Source of the DNA: Bacteroidia bacterium
GTDB taxonomy: Bacteria; Bacteroidota; Bacteroidia; J057
NCBI GenBank assembly: GCA_033391075.1
Contig: JAWPMV010000001.1
Coordinates: 3,534,001 to 3,598,000 of the forward strand
DNA length: 64,000 bases
Direction of reading: 5' to 3'
The notes below the pieces were generated by a model. It was given only the letters and a program-made list of their open reading frames with translations. It made no database searches and was not told where the DNA came from. The stretch's first letter is position 1, and the number at the start of each line of letters is the position of its first letter. A program made the translations under genes and the position numbers. This document shows positions 3,184 to 32,843 of the stretch, in pieces.

Positions 3184-4020
3184 TTAGAAAACTGCGGTTC
3201 CATTAATATCTCCGGATTTTATCAGGAAGCGATTCGGCGCAGCATCCTGGCATGCAGCTGTTCTGCCAAGCTCTCTCAAGCTGGCATCATCAAAGTTTCC
3301 GGCATCTACCAGGGCTTGCGCGCTGCTTAGCTGGTCTTCACTCAGAAATATAACATTGTCTGTCTCAGGCAATTCTGATTCCCGTTCCAGTAGGAGGCTT
3401 TCGATATGAAAGACATCTACATCATTTATCAGTCCATCCCGATTTACATCTGCAGCCAGGTATTCTCTGACTTTGGTGAAGAGATTACTTCCTGACATAT
3501 GTTTTTTAATCAGGACCAGATCAAGCAAACTGAGGCCATTGCCTTGTTCTGTGAGGTAACTCATACAGATAGGGGCCGGATCAGATACACCAAAAAGGTA
3601 GTTATAACTGCGATTTCCCTGATTCTGAAAGCTCATAGAGACATTTCCATCAGATTCGATCTGCACATTCGCAATATCTCTCCAGTTTCCATCATAAGCC
3701 TTCACCGAACCTTTGATCAGGTACACTCGATCTGTTTTACCCAGAAATACTCCTTCCTTATCACCTACTTCCGGATGAAGAATTCGGGAATTCTCAGCCA
3801 TCTCTTTTGCTCTCAATTCTTCGATAAGTTCAAGGGGGGCATTGATAAAGACTTCCCAGTTTTCAGGAGTAATTTCATCAGGGAAAGAGCTTATGGGGGA
3901 ATCTTGGGAAAGTGGCACAATTTCTTCAATAGCTTGATCTGCACATGCACTAAGACTAAAAATGAAACCGAGTGCTAAGAGGACCTTGACTAGTTGGGGG
4001 TATTGATTGTGGATTGACAT
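3184..4020 (-). CDS. Dockerin-like EF-hand lipoprotein
   Basis: A lipoprotein of about 278 residues. The start is placed at MSIHNQYPQ (4020), because that gives a normal signal peptide ending in LSAC; the frame stays open for 19 more codons upstream. Near the middle is a type I dockerin-like unit: a first helix with LLDLVLIKKHM and then DVNRDGLINDVD, a perfect 12-residue EF-hand calcium loop (D-x-N-x-D-G-x-I-x3-D), followed by a helix. In Bacteroidota such units occur on surface proteins without cellulosomes, so calcium-dependent folding or docking is plausible but not shown. The rest matches nothing I know. It is a single gene, convergent with rnr. Confidence 0.72.
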   Translation of the reverse strand: MSIHNQYPQLVKVLLALGFIFSLSACADQAIEEIVPLSQDSPISSFPDEITPENWEVFINAPLELIEELRAKEMAENSRILHPEVGDKEGVFLGKTDRVYLIKGSVKAYDGNWRDIANVQIESDGNVSMSFQNQGNRSYNYLFGVSDPAPICMSYLTEQGNGLSLLDLVLIKKHMSGSNLFTKVREYLAADVNRDGLINDVDVFHIESLLLERESELPETDNVIFLSEDQLSSAQALVDAGNFDDASLRELGRTAACQDAAPNRFLIKSGDINGTAVF

Positions 4021-4354
4021 GGTTTTCAAAATAATTAGGGTTGTTTTAAGACATTCTTCTCCCGTACTGCATAGCATTCACAGCATGCAGCCCACATCGG
4101 AATCGAAATGGATGAATGGAAAAAACCTTCGAACTTATAGGACGCAGGTCATTTTTTTATCTAAACAGATCGTAGAAAAATTTTCTGATAGGCAGGCATT
4201 GTGTTTATTGGTTATCTACTATTGTTAGACGGGAAGAGCTAAATTTTCGTTGCAGGATACCCGATTTTTACCCTAAACCAAAAAGCGTGCAATCTCTAAA
4301 GAGAAAGCACGCCAGACTCAGTGATTCAATCTGAGTTTCAAGATAAAAAGTCAA
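4021..4354. other. Intergenic region, 334 bp
   Basis: This AT-rich stretch lies between the dockerin-like lipoprotein gene and the end of the TPR lipoprotein gene. Apart from the terminator at 4279-4312 I see no gene, no RNA and no exact TAnnTTTG element. It presumably holds the promoter of the lipoprotein gene. Confidence 0.5.
4279..4312 (-). terminator. Intrinsic terminator of the DUF4331/TPR operon
   Basis: On the minus strand GCGTGC (4312-4307) and GCACGC (4290-4285) pair, with a second small stem TCTC/GAGA in the loop, and TTTTTGG follows. It lies just after the TPR lipoprotein gene. Confidence 0.72.
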
Positions 4355-5695
4355 TCATCCCTCTATTTCTTCCAACCATATCTCAGGAAGAAAGGGGTTA
4401 CTATCGAGTGCTTTTTTGAGTAGTTGCTTTGCTGCTTTTTCTTCTCCAATTTCCCTTAGAATCAATCCTTTCAAACAAAGGAACTCGGGATCATTGCTTT
4501 GGGTAATTCCGGCTTTTTGGATATGGTTTTGTGCCAACTCCCATTGCCCTTTTTTAAAGTAAATTCCGGCAAGGAGTTTATTTATATCAATGTTTTCAGG
4601 TCTGCTTCGTGCTTCTTCCAGCCCGTAAGAAAGGGCTTTGTCATAGTCTTTAATTTCTTCCAGATACAGGCGGGCAAATTCCATCCCCATATTGTGCCCT
4701 TTCTCCGTATCATCCTCCAACATTATCAGAACTTCTTCCAAAGTTGAAGTTGCTTTTTCTTCCATTCCCAGTTCTGTATAGACTCCGATCAGGGATTCAT
4801 AAAAGGAGAATTCTGGAATAAAGCTGCTGGCCTTTTCCAATAATTCTTTTGCCTCTTCATATTTACCTTCTTTGGCCGCTAAATCTCCTAAAGCTGCAAT
4901 GGCAAAAGGATAATCTGTTCTTTCCTTCAGGATTTGCTCGTATTGCATTCTTGCTTCTTCAATTCTCCCATAGTTTTCATACAGATTCCCCAGGGTCAAC
5001 CTACACCAGGCGCTTTCTTCATAACCGGGATAAGCTGCCTGGATGGCTCTATGCATGGCTTCTATGGATCCTTCCACATCACCGTGAATCTCCCTCAGAT
5101 AGGAAACACGTGCATAAGACCTCAAATCAGGCCTTAGTGAAACCATTTTATCCGAAGTCTCTACCGCCGATTTGTAATCCCCCAATTCTACATAAGCATC
5201 TACCAAAGCCCCATGAATTTGTGCATTGTAGGGATTGAGTTCTCTCGCCTGGGTAGCAACGGCCAGGGCCTGAGGGAATTTATGGAGAGATAAAAGGATA
5301 GCTGATTTTAAAGAAAGGGCGTAAAAACGATCTTCTTTTGGGGGGCTAAAGGAAAGGATGATTTCAATTTGCTCCAGGGCCTTGGGATAGTAATATCCAT
5401 GTTCTCCTCCCACCCGGGCTTCCAACATAAACAGCTGGATGAGTTTCAGGCGAGCATCAATATTCATGTGATCTTTTGCCAATTCATTTTTCAGCCCGGC
5501 ATAAATATTCAGGCTATTCTGCCGCTCTTCAGCAGAACCCAAACCCGCATTCCTTTCCAATAATTCAGGAATATTGTGGGCATCATAGGCCGAAAAGAAT
5601 TGTGTATGCGCTTTCGAATCCATGCAGGAATACAAGAGGGCCAGGGATAGGCTTATTGTCAGTATATAGATGAGGATTTGTTTGAATCGTTTCAT
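4355..5695 (-). CDS. TPR lipoprotein, last gene of the DUF4331 operon
   Basis: About 446 residues from the chosen start MKRFKQIL; an 18-codon upstream extension is rejected because it destroys the signal peptide. The signal ends in LLYSC, so this is a lipoprotein. The remainder is almost entirely tetratricopeptide repeats, for example the unit with NPYNAQIHGALVDAYVELGD and later LGNLYENYGRIEEARMQYEQ, giving a superhelical protein-binding scaffold. The gene begins 64 bases after the first DUF4331 gene and ends in a terminator, so it should be co-transcribed with both DUF4331 genes. A role in binding or assembling the DUF4331 proteins is inferred from this context only. Confidence 0.82.
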   Translation of the reverse strand: MKRFKQILIYILTISLSLALLYSCMDSKAHTQFFSAYDAHNIPELLERNAGLGSAEERQNSLNIYAGLKNELAKDHMNIDARLKLIQLFMLEARVGGEHGYYYPKALEQIEIILSFSPPKEDRFYALSLKSAILLSLHKFPQALAVATQARELNPYNAQIHGALVDAYVELGDYKSAVETSDKMVSLRPDLRSYARVSYLREIHGDVEGSIEAMHRAIQAAYPGYEESAWCRLTLGNLYENYGRIEEARMQYEQILKERTDYPFAIAALGDLAAKEGKYEEAKELLEKASSFIPEFSFYESLIGVYTELGMEEKATSTLEEVLIMLEDDTEKGHNMGMEFARLYLEEIKDYDKALSYGLEEARSRPENIDINKLLAGIYFKKGQWELAQNHIQKAGITQSNDPEFLCLKGLILREIGEEKAAKQLLKKALDSNPFLPEIWLEEIEG

Positions 5696-5759
5696 GATAT
5701 GGTTTTTAAGAAGGATGAAGGGAATGCCGGTACGAGACCGACATTCCATGAAATAATGC

Positions 5760-8519
5760 TTATTGCTTGACTATTTGTTCGACTTTGGACCAGTTTCCGC
5801 TTTGGGTTTTTATCAGATAAATACCTGCAGGGAACTCGGATACATTGATATTCAGAGAAGTCTGCTTGGCTGGATCATAGGTTCGAGACAGCAGAACTTT
5901 GCCTGTGAGATCGATAAGCTGCACACTTCCGGGCAATTCAACGTTTTCAAATGAAAGTTGAAGTTCATTCACAACCGGATTAGGATACAGGCTCAAAGTT
6001 GGACCTTCGAGATTCGTATCGTTCTGATAAGAAGAGTTTCGAGAATCCACAATATGAATGGTGATTTCCAAAGACATCCCTCTATCTCCTCTGGCACTCG
6101 AACGACTATAAGGAGTCGCCTTGATTCTATGCGTTCCCACTCTCAATCGGGCATCGAAATAGTTCCCGTTTCTGTCTCCGCCAAGGGCATAAGGAAAAAC
6201 ATTTTCCGTCCGATTCCCTCTGGAGCTCTCAAACTTTACACTTCCTACTCTTTGCGGATTGGTATTCGCCCTTACATTGAGCCTTCTGCTGGGTAGGCTG
6301 GCCAAATCAATGGTCATTCCATCCGTCAGTGGACCGATGTCCTGGTTATTTCTTGCATTGACCAGGGTAAAGCTATTCACCGCCTGCTGATTGGCAGATT
6401 GAAGAATAGTCAGGCTAATACTCAAGGGTACTCCTGCTGTGCCTCTTGCACTCCTTCTGGAAAATGGAGTTGCAGTAATTTGTATGCTGCCGGGTGTTAG
6501 GGGAATGCCGGTATAATTACCGTTTCTGTCACCAAACAAAGAGTATGGAAAAACATTCTCTACTCGACTCTGCCCCAATGCCTGAAATTTTACACTTCCT
6601 ACGACCTGAGGATTGGCATTGGCTCTTACACTAAAGGTCGATCTTGGCAGTTGGTCTATGTAGAGGGTATCACCATCTTCCAGCATCTGTACATCCTGGT
6701 TATTTCCTGCATTCACCAGGGTAAAACTGGAGATAGCTTGGGTAGGATCAAGTACATCGGGCTGGGTATAATTCACAGCTTCTCCGCTACATTTGCCGGT
6801 TCCAGACCAGGGCAATTGTACATAGGGAAAATGCCTGCGAAAATCCGCATCATTGGCTTCGATTCCGGTTGTATAAGTCAAAACATTCAACAAATCCTGA
6901 GTTACAGGTGAAGCATTGGGGTCGTTGGGATCGAAATCATCGTACCAAAGACCTATTGCAGCCAATACGATTCCACTTACTGCCTGCAGTTCAATGCGGG
7001 TAACGTCATCTTCTAATCTCCGACCATTCGGGAAGCCATCCATATTAGGAATAAATTCCAGGGCAGGAGATGAAGCGAAATTTGGGTCAACCAAACCCGA
7101 AGCAGCCGCAGCTACCAATCCTAAGGAGCTAAAGCCCGGATCATGGCGATCTGTAATAGGCGTCGCCATGTTTAAGCGAAGCATATCTCCCCCATTAGGC
7201 AGGAAGTTATTGATGAAAGGTTTTCCATTGGCTAATGGATTTCCATTTTTTCCGGTAGCCAGCTGATAAGGAGCCAGATTAGGTACACCGGTATGGAAGG
7301 TAGGCCAAAGGTCCACCGAACGAGGCTTGCCCGCATCCGGAAGCAAGAGGGTTCCGAAAATGGCATCATCCAGGGCAGTTCCAGCTACAGCAGCTGAACC
7401 CTTTAATCCAAACAATCCATCATTTCCATTGCCAAAATCAAAAGCTCCTAAAGAGTTTCTTTGGATACGTAGGGGAGAAAAGGCAGGAACAGCTCCTCCA
7501 AAGAGGGCATCATCCATGTACAGGCCTAATTCAGGATTGAAAAAATACTCAAAGTGAGCAGGGTTTTCATTGTAGGGCGTACGAGCATTCCACTCATCTT
7601 TATCGCCGATTGGAATTACTGCTTCATTGGTTAAAGGCATTCCTAATCGAGAAACCTGCACCCAATTTCCGCTATAACTGCTGCTTCCATCTGTATTAAG
7701 GGTTCTGATTTGCTGGCGGCTGGCACTTGCCCATACACCGATCACAAAGTCACCGTCCAGGATATTTTGTGCTTGAGACACATCCTTTCCATCCTTTTGC
7801 AAAAGAGAAATAGGAACCTGAATAGCAATGGTGCTTACATTCAAACAAGCAACTCCATCCTTAGGCCTTCCGTTTTGGCGAGGGGTATCTCCCAAATCGA
7901 AAACTCCTCCTAAATCCACGAAAAAAGGATCATCCGAAGGACCTGCAAAGATTTTCTCTCCGTCAGAAGTGGTATGAATAGCTTGCTGAACCAGGGAAGC
8001 ATAATCATGAGCACCCAAACCTACGGGAGACTCGATAGAACGAGGTCCAATGTTATAAGGCGGAACAACTCCATTGGAAAGAATGCTATGGAAACTAGCT
8101 CCCCCATCTGTACTTCTTTCTACCGTATAGGTTGTCATGAGATTTTCAGCTCCCAAACGGATATTGAAAAAAGTAGTGGGGTCCTGATTGGCCTTGGTAA
8201 AGGTAAAACGATAGATAATATCATCCCCTTGAGTCGACACATCATTGTCAACATGAATTTCATAGCGGATATTTTCACCAAACTGATAATAATTGGGACC
8301 GCCATGAGGCAGTTGGAAAGGAACGTAGTTCGCAATCAGGGTAACCGTATTAGGGTCGTCTGGGCTACGGAATGCATACACATCCGTGTTATCGGCCAAT
8401 GGATCATTGGCGATCAGAGGGGCTTCTCTATGGCTGGAAGCGAAGAGCGAGGACCAGCCGAGTAGGCACAGTAAGATGCCAGCCCCTATAAATTTATAGG
8501 GATTCATATTTTTCATCAT
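5760..8519 (-). CDS. DUF4331 protein with two repeat domains and T9SS tail
   Basis: A secreted 919-residue protein. After a signal peptide (cleavage near LFASS) comes the conserved DUF4331 opening SSHREAPLIANDPLADNTDV and a DUF4331 domain to about residue 590. Two tandem domains of about 110 residues follow; both start SFTLVNA.NNQD and contain the block ENVFPY.L.GDRNGNY. The C terminus has a classical type IX sorting domain (SLYPNPVVNELQLSF ... GIYLIKT), so the protein should be exported to or anchored at the cell surface. It is the middle gene of a minus-strand operon, 27 bases after its shorter paralogue. The function of DUF4331 is not established. Confidence 0.9.
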   Translation of the reverse strand: MMKNMNPYKFIGAGILLCLLGWSSLFASSHREAPLIANDPLADNTDVYAFRSPDDPNTVTLIANYVPFQLPHGGPNYYQFGENIRYEIHVDNDVSTQGDDIIYRFTFTKANQDPTTFFNIRLGAENLMTTYTVERSTDGGASFHSILSNGVVPPYNIGPRSIESPVGLGAHDYASLVQQAIHTTSDGEKIFAGPSDDPFFVDLGGVFDLGDTPRQNGRPKDGVACLNVSTIAIQVPISLLQKDGKDVSQAQNILDGDFVIGVWASASRQQIRTLNTDGSSSYSGNWVQVSRLGMPLTNEAVIPIGDKDEWNARTPYNENPAHFEYFFNPELGLYMDDALFGGAVPAFSPLRIQRNSLGAFDFGNGNDGLFGLKGSAAVAGTALDDAIFGTLLLPDAGKPRSVDLWPTFHTGVPNLAPYQLATGKNGNPLANGKPFINNFLPNGGDMLRLNMATPITDRHDPGFSSLGLVAAAASGLVDPNFASSPALEFIPNMDGFPNGRRLEDDVTRIELQAVSGIVLAAIGLWYDDFDPNDPNASPVTQDLLNVLTYTTGIEANDADFRRHFPYVQLPWSGTGKCSGEAVNYTQPDVLDPTQAISSFTLVNAGNNQDVQMLEDGDTLYIDQLPRSTFSVRANANPQVVGSVKFQALGQSRVENVFPYSLFGDRNGNYTGIPLTPGSIQITATPFSRRSARGTAGVPLSISLTILQSANQQAVNSFTLVNARNNQDIGPLTDGMTIDLASLPSRRLNVRANTNPQRVGSVKFESSRGNRTENVFPYALGGDRNGNYFDARLRVGTHRIKATPYSRSSARGDRGMSLEITIHIVDSRNSSYQNDTNLEGPTLSLYPNPVVNELQLSFENVELPGSVQLIDLTGKVLLSRTYDPAKQTSLNINVSEFPAGIYLIKTQSGNWSKVEQIVKQ

Positions 8520-8546
8520 GTGATTTTAATGTGCTAAGTGAGTCGG

Positions 8547-10304
8547 CTATCTGGAGACTTCGGTTCCTCTCCAGGGTTCAGCCAGATATGGGAATACTGA
8601 TTTAAAAGGTGCATCATTGCTTTCAACTCCGGTAGAATATTGAAGCACATTGAGCAATTGGTTTGTTACAGGGGATGCATTAGGATTGCCGGCAGAAAAA
8701 TCATCATACCAAAGGCCGATGGCTGCAAGTACTACTCCCGAAACAGCTTGTAATTCGATACGAGTCACATCATCTTCCAATCTTCGACCATTGGGAAAAC
8801 CATCCATATTTGGAATGAATTGCAAATTGGTATTTCCGGCAAAAGCAGGATCAGTCAATCCCAAAACGGCAGCAGTAATCAATCCATTCGAGCTAAACGC
8901 AGGATCATTTCTGTCTGTAATTGGAACCGCCATATTGAGTCGCAGCATATCACCACCATTGGGTAGGAAATTGTTGACGAAAGGTTTGCCTGCAGCCAGA
9001 GGATTTCCATTTTTTCCAGTGGCCAATTGATAGGGAATCACATTAGGTACACCTGTATGGAAAGCAGGCCAGATATCCACTGAACGAGGTTTGCCAGGTC
9101 CGGGAAGTAGCAGGCTACCGAAAATCGCATCATCCAATGCCGTACCAGCTACTGCAGAGCTTCCTTTTAATCCGAACAATCCATCCTCTCCATTTCCAAA
9201 ATCAAAGGCTCCCAAGGAATTTCTCTGAATCCTCAAGGCTGAAAATGCAGGAACGGCACCTCCAAACTGGTCATCATCCATATAAAGAGCCAATTCAGGA
9301 TTGTAGAAATACTCAAAATGAGCAGGATTTTCATTATAAGGAGTACGTGAGTTCCAATCGTCTTTTTCACCAATCGGAATAACCGCTTCATTGGTCAAAG
9401 GCATCCCCAGACGAGAAACCTGAATCCAGGGGCCAGAATTGCTTAGCGTACCATTTGTATTGAGGGTTTGGATTTGCTGACGGGAAGCCGAAGCCCATAC
9501 GCCAATTACAAAATCACCATCCAGAATATCTGTGGCCTGAGAAACATCTTTGCCATCTTTCTGCAAAGTAGAAATAGGTACTTGAATCACAATACTATGC
9601 GTATTGAGTTTCGCCAAGCCATCTCTTACCTGTCCTCCATTCTGCCGAGGAGAATCCCCCAGATCAAAAATTCCTCCGAGATCAACGTAGAAGGGATCAT
9701 CAGCCGGACCACAGTACACTTTTTCTCCTGTTGTGGCAGTTGCAATGCTTGCCTGAATCAAGGCTTCGTAGTTAGCCGCACCTAAACCCACTACTCCATT
9801 TTCGATAGAGCGCGGCCCAATATTAGGTGGAGGCACAATGCCATTGCTTACGATCACCTGAAAAGTATTTCCTCCGTCTATGCTTCTTTCAAGGACATAG
9901 CTGGTTTTCAGGTTTTCTTGTCCCAAACGAATGTTGAAGAAGGTTGTCGGATCTTCATTCACCTGGGTAAAAGTTGCACGATAAATAATGTCATCGCCAG
10001 GCGTACTTACATCATTGTCAACATGGATTTCATAACGGATACCTTCACCAAAAGAATTATAGTTGGGGCCTCCGAAAGGAAGTTCACCTGGTACATAATT
10101 GGCGATGAGGGTTACCGTATTGGGATCATCAGGGCTTCGAAAGGCATAGACATCGGTATTGTCCGCAAGGGGATCATTGGCGATCAGCGGAGCTTCTCGA
10201 TGGCTGGATGCCTGAAGCAGGAAAGGCAGGCTGCCCAAAACAGCTAAGCTTATCCCTCGTTTGAAGGTTCTTAGCATTCGGGCAAGGGTCATTTTTGCTC
10301 TCAT
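8547..10304 (-). CDS. DUF4331 protein without sorting domain
   Basis: A 585-residue paralogue of the DUF4331 domain next door, sharing long identical stretches such as SSHREAPLIANDPLADNTDV and FPNGRRLEDDVTRIELQAVSG. The signal peptide has a basic n-region and ends near LLQAS. The protein stops at WRGTEVSR, where the neighbour continues into its repeat domains, and it has no T9SS tail, so it is expected in the periplasm or released by another route. The ATG at 10304 is used; an alternative lies four codons later. It is the first gene of the three-gene operon. High identity and adjacency suggest a tandem duplication followed by gain or loss of the C-terminal part. Confidence 0.88.
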   Translation of the reverse strand: MRAKMTLARMLRTFKRGISLAVLGSLPFLLQASSHREAPLIANDPLADNTDVYAFRSPDDPNTVTLIANYVPGELPFGGPNYNSFGEGIRYEIHVDNDVSTPGDDIIYRATFTQVNEDPTTFFNIRLGQENLKTSYVLERSIDGGNTFQVIVSNGIVPPPNIGPRSIENGVVGLGAANYEALIQASIATATTGEKVYCGPADDPFYVDLGGIFDLGDSPRQNGGQVRDGLAKLNTHSIVIQVPISTLQKDGKDVSQATDILDGDFVIGVWASASRQQIQTLNTNGTLSNSGPWIQVSRLGMPLTNEAVIPIGEKDDWNSRTPYNENPAHFEYFYNPELALYMDDDQFGGAVPAFSALRIQRNSLGAFDFGNGEDGLFGLKGSSAVAGTALDDAIFGSLLLPGPGKPRSVDIWPAFHTGVPNVIPYQLATGKNGNPLAAGKPFVNNFLPNGGDMLRLNMAVPITDRNDPAFSSNGLITAAVLGLTDPAFAGNTNLQFIPNMDGFPNGRRLEDDVTRIELQAVSGVVLAAIGLWYDDFSAGNPNASPVTNQLLNVLQYSTGVESNDAPFKSVFPYLAEPWRGTEVSR

Positions 10305-10417
10305 AAATTAGCTTCGATTAAGTGTTGTAAAATAGAATTCGAGCTACTTACGAGAGCTTGTGGTGAAGTGGATTTAAAATGGGTGAAAAAAATTTAACTC
10401 TTCCGCTGCACCTCCCC

Positions 10418-10437
10418 GTTTCTCTCCAAAGAGAAAC
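10418..10437. other. Perfect hairpin
   Basis: GTTTCTCT (10418-10425), loop CCAA, AGAGAAAC (10430-10437). Neither flank has a T run, so it is not a standard terminator. It may belong to the nearby repeat element. Confidence 0.5.
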
Positions 10438-10458
10438 AACCCGCTAGCCCGACCTTTG

Positions 10459-10581
10459 GTCATCTCGAAGTTTGAATGTGAGAAGGATTGTGGGCTGAGA
10501 GATCATGTTTTATTTGATCTCATATAAATGCAAGGTCTCTCGGCGCTCATAAGCCCTTTCTTTAGCCAGCCTCGAGATGAC
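10459..10581. repeat. Palindromic intergenic element (GTCATCTCGA type)
   Basis: The ends are perfect inverted repeats, GTCATCTCGA (10459-10468) and TCGAGATGAC (10572-10581). Inside, GAGAGATC (10497-10504) faces GGTCTCTC (10534-10541) and a GGGCT/AGCCC pair extends the arm. The design matches the REP-like palindromes (GTCATCTCGA...GAGAGATC) scattered between genes in many Bacteroidota genomes. No transposase gene is nearby. Confidence 0.65.
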
Positions 10582-10653
10582 ACGGATTGTTTAAGGATTT
10601 GCGCGCACTCCATGACACCAAAGGTTAAGGGAGTGAAGGCTTGAGGCAGTGGG

Positions 10654-11448
10654 TCAGGAAAGTCCTCCTGAGACATACATCATATCCAGACTTGGAGTAG
10701 TACTGCCTCCACGTTTTTCGAGGGTTACAGCAAAGGCTGCTATTTCACCTTCCATGGGATTCAACTCGATCAAGCCTTCTGCGGGATCAAAAACTCCTGC
10801 ATCGACTGGCTTACCATCAATTATGGCCCAAAGCTGAAACTGCTTGTTCTGATCTGTATTACTAAGATTACCGGTATTGAGGAATACCTTTTTGTCTGAT
10901 TTGCTATAATAAACAGTAGCCAAAGAGCCAGGCGAGGCAACAGTCCCAGTCATCAGCACTTCCTTATAATGTGGACTTGTCAGAATCTTTATTTGGGTAC
11001 TACTTCTTTGAATTTGGCTGGCAAAGACATCATTCTCTATAGCCATTTCCTCGATCCTTTGATCAAGACTGGCTATTTGATTATTCGCATCCTGAATCTG
11101 TCGAAACTGAAACAAATTCATCGCAAGGCTTATCAACAAGGCAATGGCAGCAGCTATGGCCATCCATCGGAATTTAAAGCCGGAAGAGGAATTTTCATCT
11201 CCTAATTTAATGACAGGGGTTTCCTCTTCGATCTGATCCATAATTCCTGCCAGCAAATCTCTTTGAGGTTTTCTACTGAAAACAGGAGCGAGTGCTGCTA
11301 AACTTTCTTCAATCGCCTGAATTTCTGCCTGCACCTCTGGGTGTTTATCAGCCATACGACGCACCTCATCCGCTTCGCTTTCGCTTAGCTTCCCACTCAC
11401 ATAGAGTTCCAGTATACCGGACGATATGTATTCCTTCGGATCCGTCAT
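10654..11448 (-). CDS. Anti-sigma factor, RskA/anti-sigma-K type
   Basis: A 264-residue single-pass membrane protein. Residues 1-90 form a short cytoplasmic anti-sigma segment (SGILELYVSGKLSESEADEV) without the Cys/His zinc motif. A transmembrane helix lies at about 94-115, a coiled coil at 116-147, and the extracytoplasmic RskA-type domain at 150-264 (TVYYSKSDKKVFLNTGNL ... QFQLWAIIDGKPVDAGVFD). The end SLDMMYVSGG is typical of the family. It starts one base after the stop of the sigma gene, so the two are translationally linked. It should hold the ECF sigma factor at the membrane and release it on an envelope signal, which is not known here. Confidence 0.9.
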   Translation of the reverse strand: MTDPKEYISSGILELYVSGKLSESEADEVRRMADKHPEVQAEIQAIEESLAALAPVFSRKPQRDLLAGIMDQIEEETPVIKLGDENSSSGFKFRWMAIAAAIALLISLAMNLFQFRQIQDANNQIASLDQRIEEMAIENDVFASQIQRSSTQIKILTSPHYKEVLMTGTVASPGSLATVYYSKSDKKVFLNTGNLSNTDQNKQFQLWAIIDGKPVDAGVFDPAEGLIELNPMEGEIAAFAVTLEKRGGSTTPSLDMMYVSGGLS

Positions 11449-11449
11449 C

Positions 11450-11995
11450 TTATTCTTTCATAATTTTTCTCAACTCATTCAGTCCCTGTCGCACCCTCGT
11501 TTTCAGAGTTCCTAAGGGTATTTCCAGTTTCTGAGCAGCTTCCGCATGAGAATAACCTTCAAAATATACGACCTGAATTACTGCTAAAAATTTCGGATCC
11601 AGCTTGGCTACCTTTTCTCGGATGCCAATTTGGTCCGGATTAAATCCTTCTTCTCCTATCCTCTCCGCTATATCTACGAGCTTTTCTTTGCTCTGGATTT
11701 TATTTTGATTTTTAAATCCCTTCGACCTCATTTTATCAATGGCAGTGTTTCGGCAGATGTTTACCATCCAGGTAAATAGACGCCCTTTGCTCGAATCATA
11801 AGATTTAGCAAATCGCCAAATCTTTAAGACAGATTCCTGAAAGACATCCTCCGATTCAGGATCGTTTTTAATCATTTGAAAGATCACTCCATACAGAACC
11901 TCTGAATAGTTCTCATAGATCATACGGATCGCGGACTTGTCTCCCTGACGGAGTAGTTCGACGATCTGTTTTTCAATATGTGTGAGTGCCTTCAA
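11450..11995 (-). CDS. ECF RNA polymerase sigma factor (SigK-like)
   Basis: A 181-residue sigma-70 family protein. Region 2 (about 20-95) carries the -10-binding segment DVFQESVLKIWRFAKSYD and GRLFTWMVNICRNTAIDKMR. Region 4 (about 125-178) carries the helix-turn-helix YFEGYSHAEAAQKLEIPLGT followed by KTRVRQGLNELRK. The region 4 style and the RskA partner place it with SigK-type ECF factors. Likely targets include its own operon and the DUF4331 genes downstream (inference). The convergent terminator at 12057-12093 shields it from read-through of the oxidoreductase gene. Confidence 0.93.
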   Translation of the reverse strand: MKALTHIEKQIVELLRQGDKSAIRMIYENYSEVLYGVIFQMIKNDPESEDVFQESVLKIWRFAKSYDSSKGRLFTWMVNICRNTAIDKMRSKGFKNQNKIQSKEKLVDIAERIGEEGFNPDQIGIREKVAKLDPKFLAVIQVVYFEGYSHAEAAQKLEIPLGTLKTRVRQGLNELRKIMKE

Positions 11996-30548: not shown

Positions 30549-32843
30549 TTAGTTTATGGTATAACGGACACCCAGGAATGCCCGAATTCCTTGATTGGGA
30601 GCAAAAACATAGGTCGGATCAAAGCTCAAAGCATGGGGATTATTGGGAGTTGAAATTACTTGTCCCAGCTCGTCAAAACTTACTCCCTGATCAAAGGGAT
30701 CAAAGGCTCGGGCAATGCTATTGGCAGGTGGTGTATAATTTAAGAGGTTTTTGATCCCTCCATAGATTTCCCAGTTCCCCTGAGTCTTCTTCGTAATTTG
30801 AATATTCTGAAGACTCCACCAGGGCGACTCTGCTTGTCGAGGGTCTTTATCCCCCAGCAAAGGAAGTTCCATCGGCCCATAAAGATTACCGGTATAATCG
30901 AGGCTAAGACCCAATTCAGAAAAGCTATAGGAAATGCTCCAAACCCCGGCCACTCTCTCTGTTAGCAATTGGCGATCTCTTTCCCCATTTTCTTCCGAAT
31001 AAACATCCATCAGCGTTATACCTGCCAAGAGATTTAATCCCGAATTGAAGGCCATATCCAGATTTAGAGAGAAGCCTTTTGAAACTGCAAAACCATCCAG
31101 ATTATCGTAAATGATTTTGTTGGGATCGCTTTCATAATCCGCAATGATACGATTGCCAAAATGGGTATAAAAGGCCGTTGCATCCAGGCCGATATAGGTA
31201 TTGTTTTTGGTAAAAATCTTCTTGACGAAATTCAGGTTTGCATTCCAGGAAGTTTCAGGCTTGAGCTCGCTTTCAAGTACCACCTGACGAGCCCCGGTAA
31301 GGGCTGCATGATCCTCGGTGAAAATATTTGCCACCCGATATCCATTTCCGGCACTCAGCCTAAGGATATTTCTTTTATTCGCCGAGTTCCACTTATAATT
31401 GATACGAGGGGAAAAGATATTCCCGTGCGAACTATTGTAGTCATACCTGACTCCTAGCAAAAGCTTGTTTTGAGAATTTAATGCAATCTCGTCTTGCAAA
31501 AACACGCCCGGCAAATGAGTTACAGAAGCCAGATTTGAGGGATTTGCAGTTGTATCAAAGCTGGCCGTTGCAGGAGTATTGTCATCATAATAGGTATAGC
31601 GATAAGCAGCACCCGCCAATATATCATGTCTTTCTCCCAAAGGCTTATTCCAGATCAGCTGAGTAAATCCTATGTTCTGCTTCGCCAGATAGGGCATATT
31701 CCCATAGACCGAATTTTGGTCATGACCATTGGCACTGAGCTGCAAACGAATATTTTCTGCTACAGGAAGCTGGTAATTGGCAATGAATTCCCAGCGATTG
31801 GTATAAATACTTTCTCCATAAACCTCTTCCCCCCCACGAAATTTACTCTCCCAATTCATCTGTCCTCCCCAACGGTCTTCATACACATACCTCCCTGCTA
31901 CAGAAAACTCTTTTCCATCTTTTCTTTGAAAATTAATCTTATTAAAGAAACTGATTCGATTTTGCAGGGTGACATCTGTAAAACCATCTCCATTATTATC
32001 GATGGGATTTTGGTAGTTGAAATAATTGAGGCCAAATAAGGCTTCAGCCCTTTTTCCGACATTATATTTCAAACCCAAATCAGTATTGATCTCCCCCCAA
32101 CTACTTCCCATTACATCCGCAGAAAAAAGAGGGGCATTGCCCGGTTTTTTGGTAATAATATTGATCAAACCTCCGACAGCTTCTGATCCATATAAAGTGG
32201 AAGCAGGTCCTTTTACAATCTCTACCCTTTCTATCAATGCCTGAGGAATGCCAGTTAAACCATAGACCGTAGAAAGCCCACTCACTATGGGCATTCCATC
32301 CAACATCACCATCGTATAGGGACCTTCCAATCCATTGATATGGATATCTCCGGTATTGCAGACATTACAGTTTAATTGTGGCCTTACGCCATTTACATTC
32401 TGAAGCGATTCAAAAACCGAAGGAGCCGGATTCGCCTTAAAGAAAGAAGCACTATAAACCTCTACCGGGACCGGACTATCCAATTTATTGACCTCCTTCA
32501 TTGTACCGGAAATCACTACTTCATCCAATGCAAGCATTGATTCTTCCAGAGCAATGCTTAACTCCAGAAGCTCATTGGCTTTGCCCAAAACGAGTTTCTG
32601 CTTATACGGAACGAAGCCCAGCATCTTCACCTCTATTTCATAGCTTCCCAAAGGAAGATTTTCAATCAAAAACTCCCCGTTTTGATTCGTTGTAGATCCA
32701 AAGGGAGTCTTTTTCAGGACCACATGGGCAAACTCTATCGGGATGTCTCCATTCAGGATCTTTCCCTGAATTTGAGCAGTTTGGGCAGAAACCACTGAAA
32801 ATGAGACTACTAGTAGAATAAAGTAAAGGATAGAATGCTTCAT
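30549..32843 (-). CDS. TonB-dependent outer-membrane receptor
   Basis: A 764-residue outer-membrane importer. A signal peptide ending VVSAQ is followed by a carboxypeptidase-regulatory-like domain (about 22-105), the plug (about 115-230, with VMLDGMPIVSG and EIVKGPASTLYGSEAVGGL), and a 22-strand barrel ending in GVRYTIN. The plug carries LNCNVCNTGDIHINGLEG, a CxxC pair seen in a subgroup of metal-linked receptors. There is no SusD partner, so polysaccharide uptake is unlikely. The operon has a DtxR-like palindrome over its promoter and a thioredoxin-like second gene; iron, manganese or another metal complex is a fair guess for the ligand. Confidence 0.93.
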   Translation of the reverse strand: MKHSILYFILLVVSFSVVSAQTAQIQGKILNGDIPIEFAHVVLKKTPFGSTTNQNGEFLIENLPLGSYEIEVKMLGFVPYKQKLVLGKANELLELSIALEESMLALDEVVISGTMKEVNKLDSPVPVEVYSASFFKANPAPSVFESLQNVNGVRPQLNCNVCNTGDIHINGLEGPYTMVMLDGMPIVSGLSTVYGLTGIPQALIERVEIVKGPASTLYGSEAVGGLINIITKKPGNAPLFSADVMGSSWGEINTDLGLKYNVGKRAEALFGLNYFNYQNPIDNNGDGFTDVTLQNRISFFNKINFQRKDGKEFSVAGRYVYEDRWGGQMNWESKFRGGEEVYGESIYTNRWEFIANYQLPVAENIRLQLSANGHDQNSVYGNMPYLAKQNIGFTQLIWNKPLGERHDILAGAAYRYTYYDDNTPATASFDTTANPSNLASVTHLPGVFLQDEIALNSQNKLLLGVRYDYNSSHGNIFSPRINYKWNSANKRNILRLSAGNGYRVANIFTEDHAALTGARQVVLESELKPETSWNANLNFVKKIFTKNNTYIGLDATAFYTHFGNRIIADYESDPNKIIYDNLDGFAVSKGFSLNLDMAFNSGLNLLAGITLMDVYSEENGERDRQLLTERVAGVWSISYSFSELGLSLDYTGNLYGPMELPLLGDKDPRQAESPWWSLQNIQITKKTQGNWEIYGGIKNLLNYTPPANSIARAFDPFDQGVSFDELGQVISTPNNPHALSFDPTYVFAPNQGIRAFLGVRYTIN

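Follow-up and report, generated by a model that had tools for sequence, protein, structure and literature searches.

Results

Within a 64-kb window of the 9.49-Mb genome of a Bacteroidia bacterium, we examined the locus at 4355-11995, where the genes for an extracytoplasmic function (ECF) sigma factor, an RskA-type anti-sigma factor, two DUF4331 proteins and a tetratricopeptide repeat (TPR) lipoprotein all lie on the minus strand and are followed by a terminator (Table 1). Its sequence suggests, with a probability that we put at about 0.77, a two-gene stress switch with its own DUF4331 output operon and an intragenic promoter for the anti-sigma gene.

In this model, the anti-sigma factor would keep the sigma factor at the membrane until an envelope signal frees it, and the sigma factor would then guide RNA polymerase to promoters of the form CCAAA-N13/14-CGTARRTR, located before the DUF4331-DUF4331-TPR operon and before a split DUF4331 operon elsewhere in the genome. 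A promoter inside the sigma gene would transcribe the anti-sigma gene alone and restore inhibition. The sigma gene itself is probably transcribed from a housekeeping promoter, so that the loop would be negative rather than self-amplifying. The products would be exported proteins; in relatives, their companions are a TPR lipoprotein, a receptor of the TonB-dependent type and at times a HupE/UreJ membrane protein. The most likely role of the products would be in a module for capture or uptake at the cell surface, made in response to oxidative stress or another stress on the envelope.

A shared promoter-like motif precedes many DUF4331 operons

Many DUF4331 operons in related genomes share the element CCAAA-N13/14-CGTARRTR in their upstream regions (all promoters named here are predicted from sequence). 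The element first stood out, as CCAAA...CGTAARTR, in the sequences upstream of sigma and DUF4331 genes of relatives. We built a matrix from 11 seed sites and tested it, at a threshold of 15 bits, on loci that gave no seed. The motif preceded 21 of the 91 first DUF4331 genes, 13 of the 80 TPR genes and 6 of the 37 TonB-receptor genes; the corresponding counts were 1/55 for sigma genes and zero for second DUF4331 genes (0/66), anti-sigma genes (0/51), HupE genes (0/19) and the C-half genes of split DUF4331 (0/11). Twenty column-permuted matrices matched 0.1% of first DUF4331 genes on average and 1.1% at most. These statistics establish the motif before DUF4331 operons. Some gene of the module was preceded by it in 25 of the 39 DUF4331 loci with a visible anti-sigma gene and in 24 of the 68 without one.

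When the window was excluded from the matrix, the top two scores in its 64 kb both came from the locus: one site inside the sigma gene (18.9 bits) and one upstream of the first DUF4331 gene (15.5 bits). The whole genome contains 10 pattern matches, one of them inside the window sigma gene, and only two of them end at most 60 nt upstream of a called gene start. These two belong to the two DUF4331 operons, with distances of 41 and 35 nt. We infer that the window sigma factor reads this motif. A stricter pattern gave 104 matches in 40 genomes versus 58 for the control (summed), and one relative (G010) carries the motif at three separate DUF4331 loci and, at 56 nt, before a CHRD gene. A further match of 14.8 bits is present in the window at 31083-31113 on the plus strand.

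The motif recurs inside the sigma gene

The site within the sigma gene, which had been missed in a preliminary description of the locus, is not peculiar to the window. Across 65 sigma genes, the mean best score was 7.14, compared with 0.02 (standard deviation 0.56) in synonymous-codon shuffles (z 12.7), and a site of at least 14 bits was present in 12 of the 65 genes as against 0.45 in shuffles. The same shuffle applied to five other gene families gave z values of -0.9 to 0.8. The best site falls in a single alignment column in 44 of the 65 genes, in the linker between regions 2 and 4. Matrices derived from a single clade also find the intragenic site in other clades (z 10.4 and 3.8; 11.0 outside both seed clades). 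The intragenic motif is thus supported by sequence statistics, and the synonymous-shuffle z indicates that it is maintained by selection at the DNA level.

In the 32 sigma genes scoring at least 10 bits, the -10 element occupies one codon frame and the -35 element two, with spacers of 13 or 14 and 16 genes each; protein constraint does not explain two -35 codon frames. The natural reading is that the site serves as a sigma-dependent promoter for the anti-sigma gene, by analogy with sigH-rshA of Corynebacterium glutamicum.

The sigma gene itself appears to be under different control. TAnnTTTG has been named as the housekeeping box of flavobacteria (PMC9723704), and we looked for it in the 120 nt upstream of each gene. 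It was present there for sigma genes in 18 of 65 cases, for first DUF4331 genes in 1 of 102, for TonB-receptor genes in 5 of 46 and for TPR genes in none of 89.

The sigma/anti-sigma pair and DUF4331 are linked across Bacteroidota

As the preliminary description had proposed, we compared the neighbourhoods of DUF4331 genes across the phylum, in a sample of 296 genomes (DUF4331 in 38, RskA_C in 121). RskA_C lies within 10 kb of DUF4331 in 13 of the 38 DUF4331 genomes (8 of 26 genera), where 0.24 would be expected from counts read off genome search listings. The linkage, established by these numbers, is conserved. RskA_C is also present in 33 of the 38 DUF4331 genomes versus 88 of the 258 others (odds ratio 12.8, uncorrected for kinship). 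The window's own family has DUF4331 in 8 of 13 genomes and the pair nearby in five of those eight; in the remaining three, the DUF4331 contig stops within 0.5 kb of the DUF4331 genes, and one of these three has the pair on another contig beside TPR, HupE and TonB-receptor genes (L102). Taken together, the linkage beyond chance and the motif before both operons of the genome support the earlier suggestion that DUF4331 proteins belong to the regulon, and do so well for sequence evidence.

As named loci we took the best 80 of at least 587 confirmed stretches, chosen by DUF4331 similarity. Among the 38 named loci of at least 21 kb, a TPR gene was present in 36, a TonB receptor in 17, sigma and anti-sigma genes in 11 and HupE/UreJ in 7. 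These companions were assigned by domain scans, as Plug plus barrel in three TonB-dependent receptors and as HupE_UreJ_2 in one membrane protein. Some relatives have DUF4331 divided into two adjacent genes. In the 38 loci from all sources that carry both the pair and DUF4331, we found four relative arrangements (20, 9, 7 and 2 loci), and the label linked or unlinked changes at least six times on a tree of 57 pairs. Our contrast set consisted of 20 chosen RskA loci without a nearby DUF4331 match; one of them (L139) carries, next to the pair, a gene that distantly resembles DUF4331, and DUF4331 occurs elsewhere in several contrast genomes.

Four DUF4331 loci that are 68-72% identical to the window's come from bins labelled Saccharospirillaceae, Williamsia, Proteobacteria and Armatimonadetes (L027, L034, L066 and L086); these are possibly mis-binned Bacteroidota contigs. 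At six loci, a gene for a small MscS-type mechanosensitive channel adjoins the pair, as assigned by Pfam for L046 and by cluster membership for L048, L049, L065, L097 and L109.

Genes and signals of the locus

The gene content of the preliminary description holds: the sigma and anti-sigma genes are separated by one base, and the two similar DUF4331 genes and the TPR gene share their strand and end at a terminator, a hairpin that none of 200 shuffles matched in folding. The anti-sigma protein also passes an NCBIfam anti-sigma factor model (100.3 bits, cut-off 100), and its residues ~93-115 form a hydrophobic stretch, judged by eye from the translation, which is a candidate for a single membrane helix linking cytoplasmic and outer domains. 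The true start of the TPR protein is likely an inner ATG near 5695, from which the translation would give a lipoprotein signal ending in LLYSC. Downstream, at 3184-4077 on the minus strand, a 297-aa protein carries a dockerin-like stretch just below the Pfam cut-off (22.6 versus 22.9 bits). PADLOC returned no match for the three proteins submitted to it.

Table 1. Predicted features of the locus, in window coordinates
Feature	Position	Strand	Properties
Hairpin between upstream oxidoreductase gene and sigma gene	12096-12054	minus	-20.9 kcal/mol, z -6.0
ECF sigma factor gene	11995-11450	minus	181 aa, TTG start; Pfam Sigma70_r2 47.0 bits, Sigma70_r4 40.4 bits
Predicted sigma-dependent promoter inside sigma gene	11700-11671	minus	AAATCCAGA-N13-CGTAGATA; ends 223 nt before anti-sigma start
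RskA-type anti-sigma gene	11448-10654	minus	264 aa; RskA_C 72.3 bits (cut-off 29.4)
Interspersed repeat filling most of gap	10400-10640	.	51 matches in own genome, E up to 0.001
Predicted sigma-dependent promoter, DUF4331 operon	10375-10345	minus	AAATCCACT-N14-CGTAAGTA; ends 41 nt before first DUF4331 start
First DUF4331 gene	10304-8547	minus	585 aa, signal-peptide-like start; PF14224 423.8 bits (cut-off 27)
Second DUF4331 gene	8519-5760	minus	919 aa; PF14224 443.9 bits (cut-off 27), Por_Secre_tail 46.2 bits (cut-off 27)
TPR lipoprotein gene	5749-4355	minus	TPR models (Pfam); lipobox from translation
Intrinsic terminator hairpin + UUUUU, after TPR gene	4313-4284	minus	-17.8 kcal/mol, z -4.2

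The gap between the anti-sigma gene and the first DUF4331 gene (10305-10653, 349 nt) had been described as lacking a housekeeping promoter, and its minus strand indeed has no TAnnTTTG and no TAnnTTGY box. This is weak evidence on its own because most of the gap is a repeat. The repeat is intergenic, and some of its copies form tandem clusters. A scan for E. coli-type promoters gave 9 sites versus 19.7 in shuffles, the E. coli consensus being uninformative for this phylum.

DUF4331 proteins are an old, exported pair

The two DUF4331 proteins of the window are 77% identical over 565 aligned positions. A recent duplication can be rejected: across the window's family, first and second copies group by position in the tree (support 96/98 and 85/77), and the pair therefore reflects an old division of labour. 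The second protein consists of DUF4331, two repeats of ~118 aa (spacing 354 nt) and a sorting tail of the type IX secretion system (T9SS), which was found on 27 of 29 second copies chosen for scanning. Pfam detected no C-terminal sorting domain on the 585-aa first copy at E 0.001. Among the near-invariant residues of 17 fused and split DUF4331 sequences, Asp and Asn are frequent, and one is a His that directly follows the signal peptide.

Besides the window operon, the genome has a split, two-gene form of DUF4331 on contig 5 (C5:472691-473859, L112), composed of an N half, a lipoprotein-like C half and a TPR gene. This operon carries the same promoter motif, and ~2.6 kb upstream of it, in the same orientation, is a gene for a distantly related TonB receptor.

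Solved structures gave no sequence match to DUF4331. The predicted structure of the 585-aa protein (mean predicted local distance difference test, pLDDT, 76; predicted template modelling score, pTM, 0.81) retrieved nothing better than E 0.04 in Foldseek, with a best VIA Z of 6.9. Folded alone, the N-terminal half is beta-sandwich-like (pLDDT 78), and its model found nothing better than E 0.16 in Foldseek; the best VIA match was Sas6 with CBM74 (Z 8.0, root-mean-square deviation 4.4, 192 aligned), followed by antibodies at 6.8. This gives a weak hint of a glycan-binding-like sandwich, which we do not use in our argument. Given the TonB-receptor and HupE companions, our leading guess for the role of DUF4331 is capture of a ligand at the surface. 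The main alternative is adhesion or a protective coat, as has been suggested for fasciclin.

The motif also precedes fasciclin and other genes

The regulon proposed in the preliminary description stands for DUF4331, yet it is incomplete: in relatives, the motif is also found before TPR, TonB-receptor and fasciclin genes and before single genes of other kinds. It lies directly upstream of a fasciclin gene in at least 15 of 47 genomes, at 25-44 nt in 13 of them, and in two the called start overlaps the motif; the identity of these genes was confirmed by position. Two patterns gave 160 matches in the 47 genomes, and the count of 15 is a lower bound because flanks were read for only part of them, namely the search loci and further regions chosen since their spacing looked right. 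The motif also occurs once each before genes for ferritin-like, MsrB (SelR), DUF547 and CHRD proteins, and in two cases before a gene for a beta-propeller-like lipoprotein.

RskA_C occurs twice in the genome of the window, in the window pair and in a second pair (C1:6477204, L113) ~3.3 kb from a fasciclin gene. Motif matches near this second pair are weak, at 8.0 bits for the fasciclin gene and 7.8 bits for that sigma gene. At three pair loci that lack DUF4331 (L136-L138), there is a strong motif in divergent orientation to the sigma gene. The next recognised gene encodes a glutathione peroxidase, which we do not count as a direct target there, since the motif lies 555-668 nt upstream, and in two of the three loci, frames of 40-46 codons stand between motif and glutathione peroxidase gene. 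These short frames (L137, 9764-9904, 46 codons; L138, ~6949-7071, 40 codons) begin 57-78 nt past the motif and share a similar N-terminal membrane-like stretch; it is possible that they are a small target gene or its remnant.

Light or singlet oxygen may be the signal, as suggested tentatively by parallels with other systems and by the motif's presence before single genes for MsrB (SelR) and a ferritin-like protein.

Discussion

A number of observations weigh against the proposed switch. Our seed sites were chosen by eye, from the sigma and DUF4331 upstream regions of relatives, and a looser pattern did not exceed its reversed control (10 versus 12 in the genome of the window, 46 versus 50 in six relatives). 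At 15 bits, the motif is absent from 14 of the 39 linked DUF4331 loci and from 44 of the 68 loci without a visible anti-sigma gene, which could perhaps be due to differences in sigma specificity from clade to clade. Kinship among the sigma genes in our test makes the shuffle z overstate their independence, and the intragenic site is missing from six deep-branching members (z 0.8). As for the sign of the loop, the window sigma gene has no exact TAnnTTTG box but one of the TAnnTTGY type, the motif precedes some sigma genes (three sites of at least 14 bits), and a 9.7-bit match lies upstream of the window sigma gene at 12106-12077, so weak self-activation through this site is possible. The match overlaps the terminator hairpin upstream of the gene. 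Finally, the role of DUF4331 is purely inferred, and the second RskA pair, near its fasciclin gene, could share or own the motif.

This last point leads to the possibility that another sigma factor, from the second RskA-type pair or another ECF sigma factor, reads the motif, with the neighbouring pair merely syntenic or sharing part of the regulon. The weak matches at the second pair and the persistence of the motif in DUF4331 loci without a visible anti-sigma gene would fit this explanation. Nevertheless, we consider it unlikely, given that the two strongest sites of the window are both inside the locus, that pattern matches within 60 nt of a gene start in this genome occur only before DUF4331, and that the intragenic copy sits in the window sigma gene itself. 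The preliminary description had also raised the possibility that DUF4331 proteins are partners sensed by RskA. The exported DUF4331 or TPR proteins might instead be sensors or co-sensors that bind the outer domain of the anti-sigma factor, such that the linkage would reflect signalling rather than, or besides, regulation. They do adjoin an anti-sigma gene whose product has an extracytoplasmic domain, and the first DUF4331 copy, which has no T9SS tail, could be periplasmic. However, unlinked DUF4331 operons share the promoter motif, as expected of targets, and some pairs in relatives lie near fasciclin or glutathione peroxidase genes with no DUF4331 nearby; a sensory role seems to us improbable.

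Concerning the sequence inside the sigma gene, it could be conserved for another reason, for example as a translational or mRNA signal. Its position in coding sequence, the kinship of the genes compared and the lack of the site in deep-branching sigma genes leave some room for this. We nonetheless think it rather unlikely, because the site was found with a matrix made from intergenic sites only, because synonymous shuffles lose it, and because two -35 codon frames are kept with a matching change of spacer. That the linkage itself is inherited synteny with no regulatory meaning strikes us as very improbable: although most named loci come from Bacteroidota kin and only 11 of the 38 longer ones have the pair, the four arrangements, the repeated changes of the linked label on the tree of pairs and the promoter motif all disfavour it.

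RskA pairs, ECF promoters and intragenic anti-sigma promoters are each known already. As far as our literature searches reach, their combination, its spread and the DUF4331 target are new, and we found no paper naming DUF4331 or PF14224 in the literature searched. With a predicted regulator, a predicted promoter and recurrent companions, DUF4331 would cease to be an orphan domain and become a stress-induced surface module open to testing. The promoter within the sigma gene would be a case of a regulatory signal that can be seen in a coding sequence despite wide divergence, and the sign of the feedback can be predicted from it.

Comparison with known systems

In FecI-FecR cell-surface signalling, an ECF sigma factor and its anti-sigma factor are linked to TonB-dependent receptors, as is also seen in relatives of the window. 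In contrast to that system, the window anti-sigma factor matches RskA_C and has no FecR match in Pfam or NCBIfam, the Pfam matches of three linked receptors in relatives include no STN domain, and no receptor lies beside the pair in the window. The promoter inside the sigma gene has a parallel in C. glutamicum, whose anti-sigma factor, RshA, is presumably of a different kind. There, housekeeping promoters serve sigH and a SigH-dependent promoter inside sigH drives rshA alone, as determined by experiment (PMC3489674); the same layout is predicted here, from sequence alone. The regulon of SigH, unlike that proposed here, is one of disulphide and heat stress.

A fasciclin gene is under an ECF sigma system in Azospirillum brasilense as well, where RpoE-ChrR figures in a study of photooxidative stress (as cited in PMC10949492). 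ChrR is a zinc anti-sigma factor according to PMC7406223, not an RskA. The SM6 motif of Flavobacterium psychrophilum differs in its targets, which are T9SS and other genes, a comparison that concerns the targets and not the SM6 logo itself. Class I anti-sigma neighbours occur at only 6% of Bacteroidetes ECFs according to PMC7406223, and RskA pairs are therefore a minority type in this group.

SigK-RskA of Mycobacterium tuberculosis (regulon mpt70 and mpt83; PMC7509140 and PMC9861118) resembles the window pair in several ways: an ECF sigma gene adjacent to that of an RskA_C anti-sigma factor, SigK itself (4nqw) as the best-scoring solved structure for the window sigma factor in a PDB sequence search, and the motif before fasciclin-domain genes in the window's relatives. 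In M. kansasii, light induces the homologues of mpt70 and mpt83, which carry the annotation of fasciclin proteins, and the stimuli of the mycobacterial system are called obscure (both from PMC9861118). The two systems differ in several respects. The window sigma factor fails the SigK model PRK09646 of NCBIfam (108.6 bits versus a cut-off of 226) and has one cysteine in 181 residues, compared with the two conserved cysteines of mycobacterial-type SigK reported in PMC7509140. Its strongest targets in its own genome would be DUF4331 operons, with a further predicted promoter inside the sigma gene, and the fasciclin site of this genome is weak and lies beside the other RskA pair.

It is tempting to speculate, at roughly even odds, that these pairs govern a stress regulon which is widespread in Bacteroidota and corresponds to mycobacterial SigK-RskA, with an inhibitor promoter borne by the poorly conserved sigma linker and DUF4331 as a stress-induced surface-binding protein. 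Such a regulon would comprise the DUF4331 module (TPR lipoprotein, TonB receptor and HupE-like protein) and, elsewhere, fasciclin, CHRD and perhaps oxidation-repair proteins, and its fasciclin members would form the bridge to the mycobacterial system.

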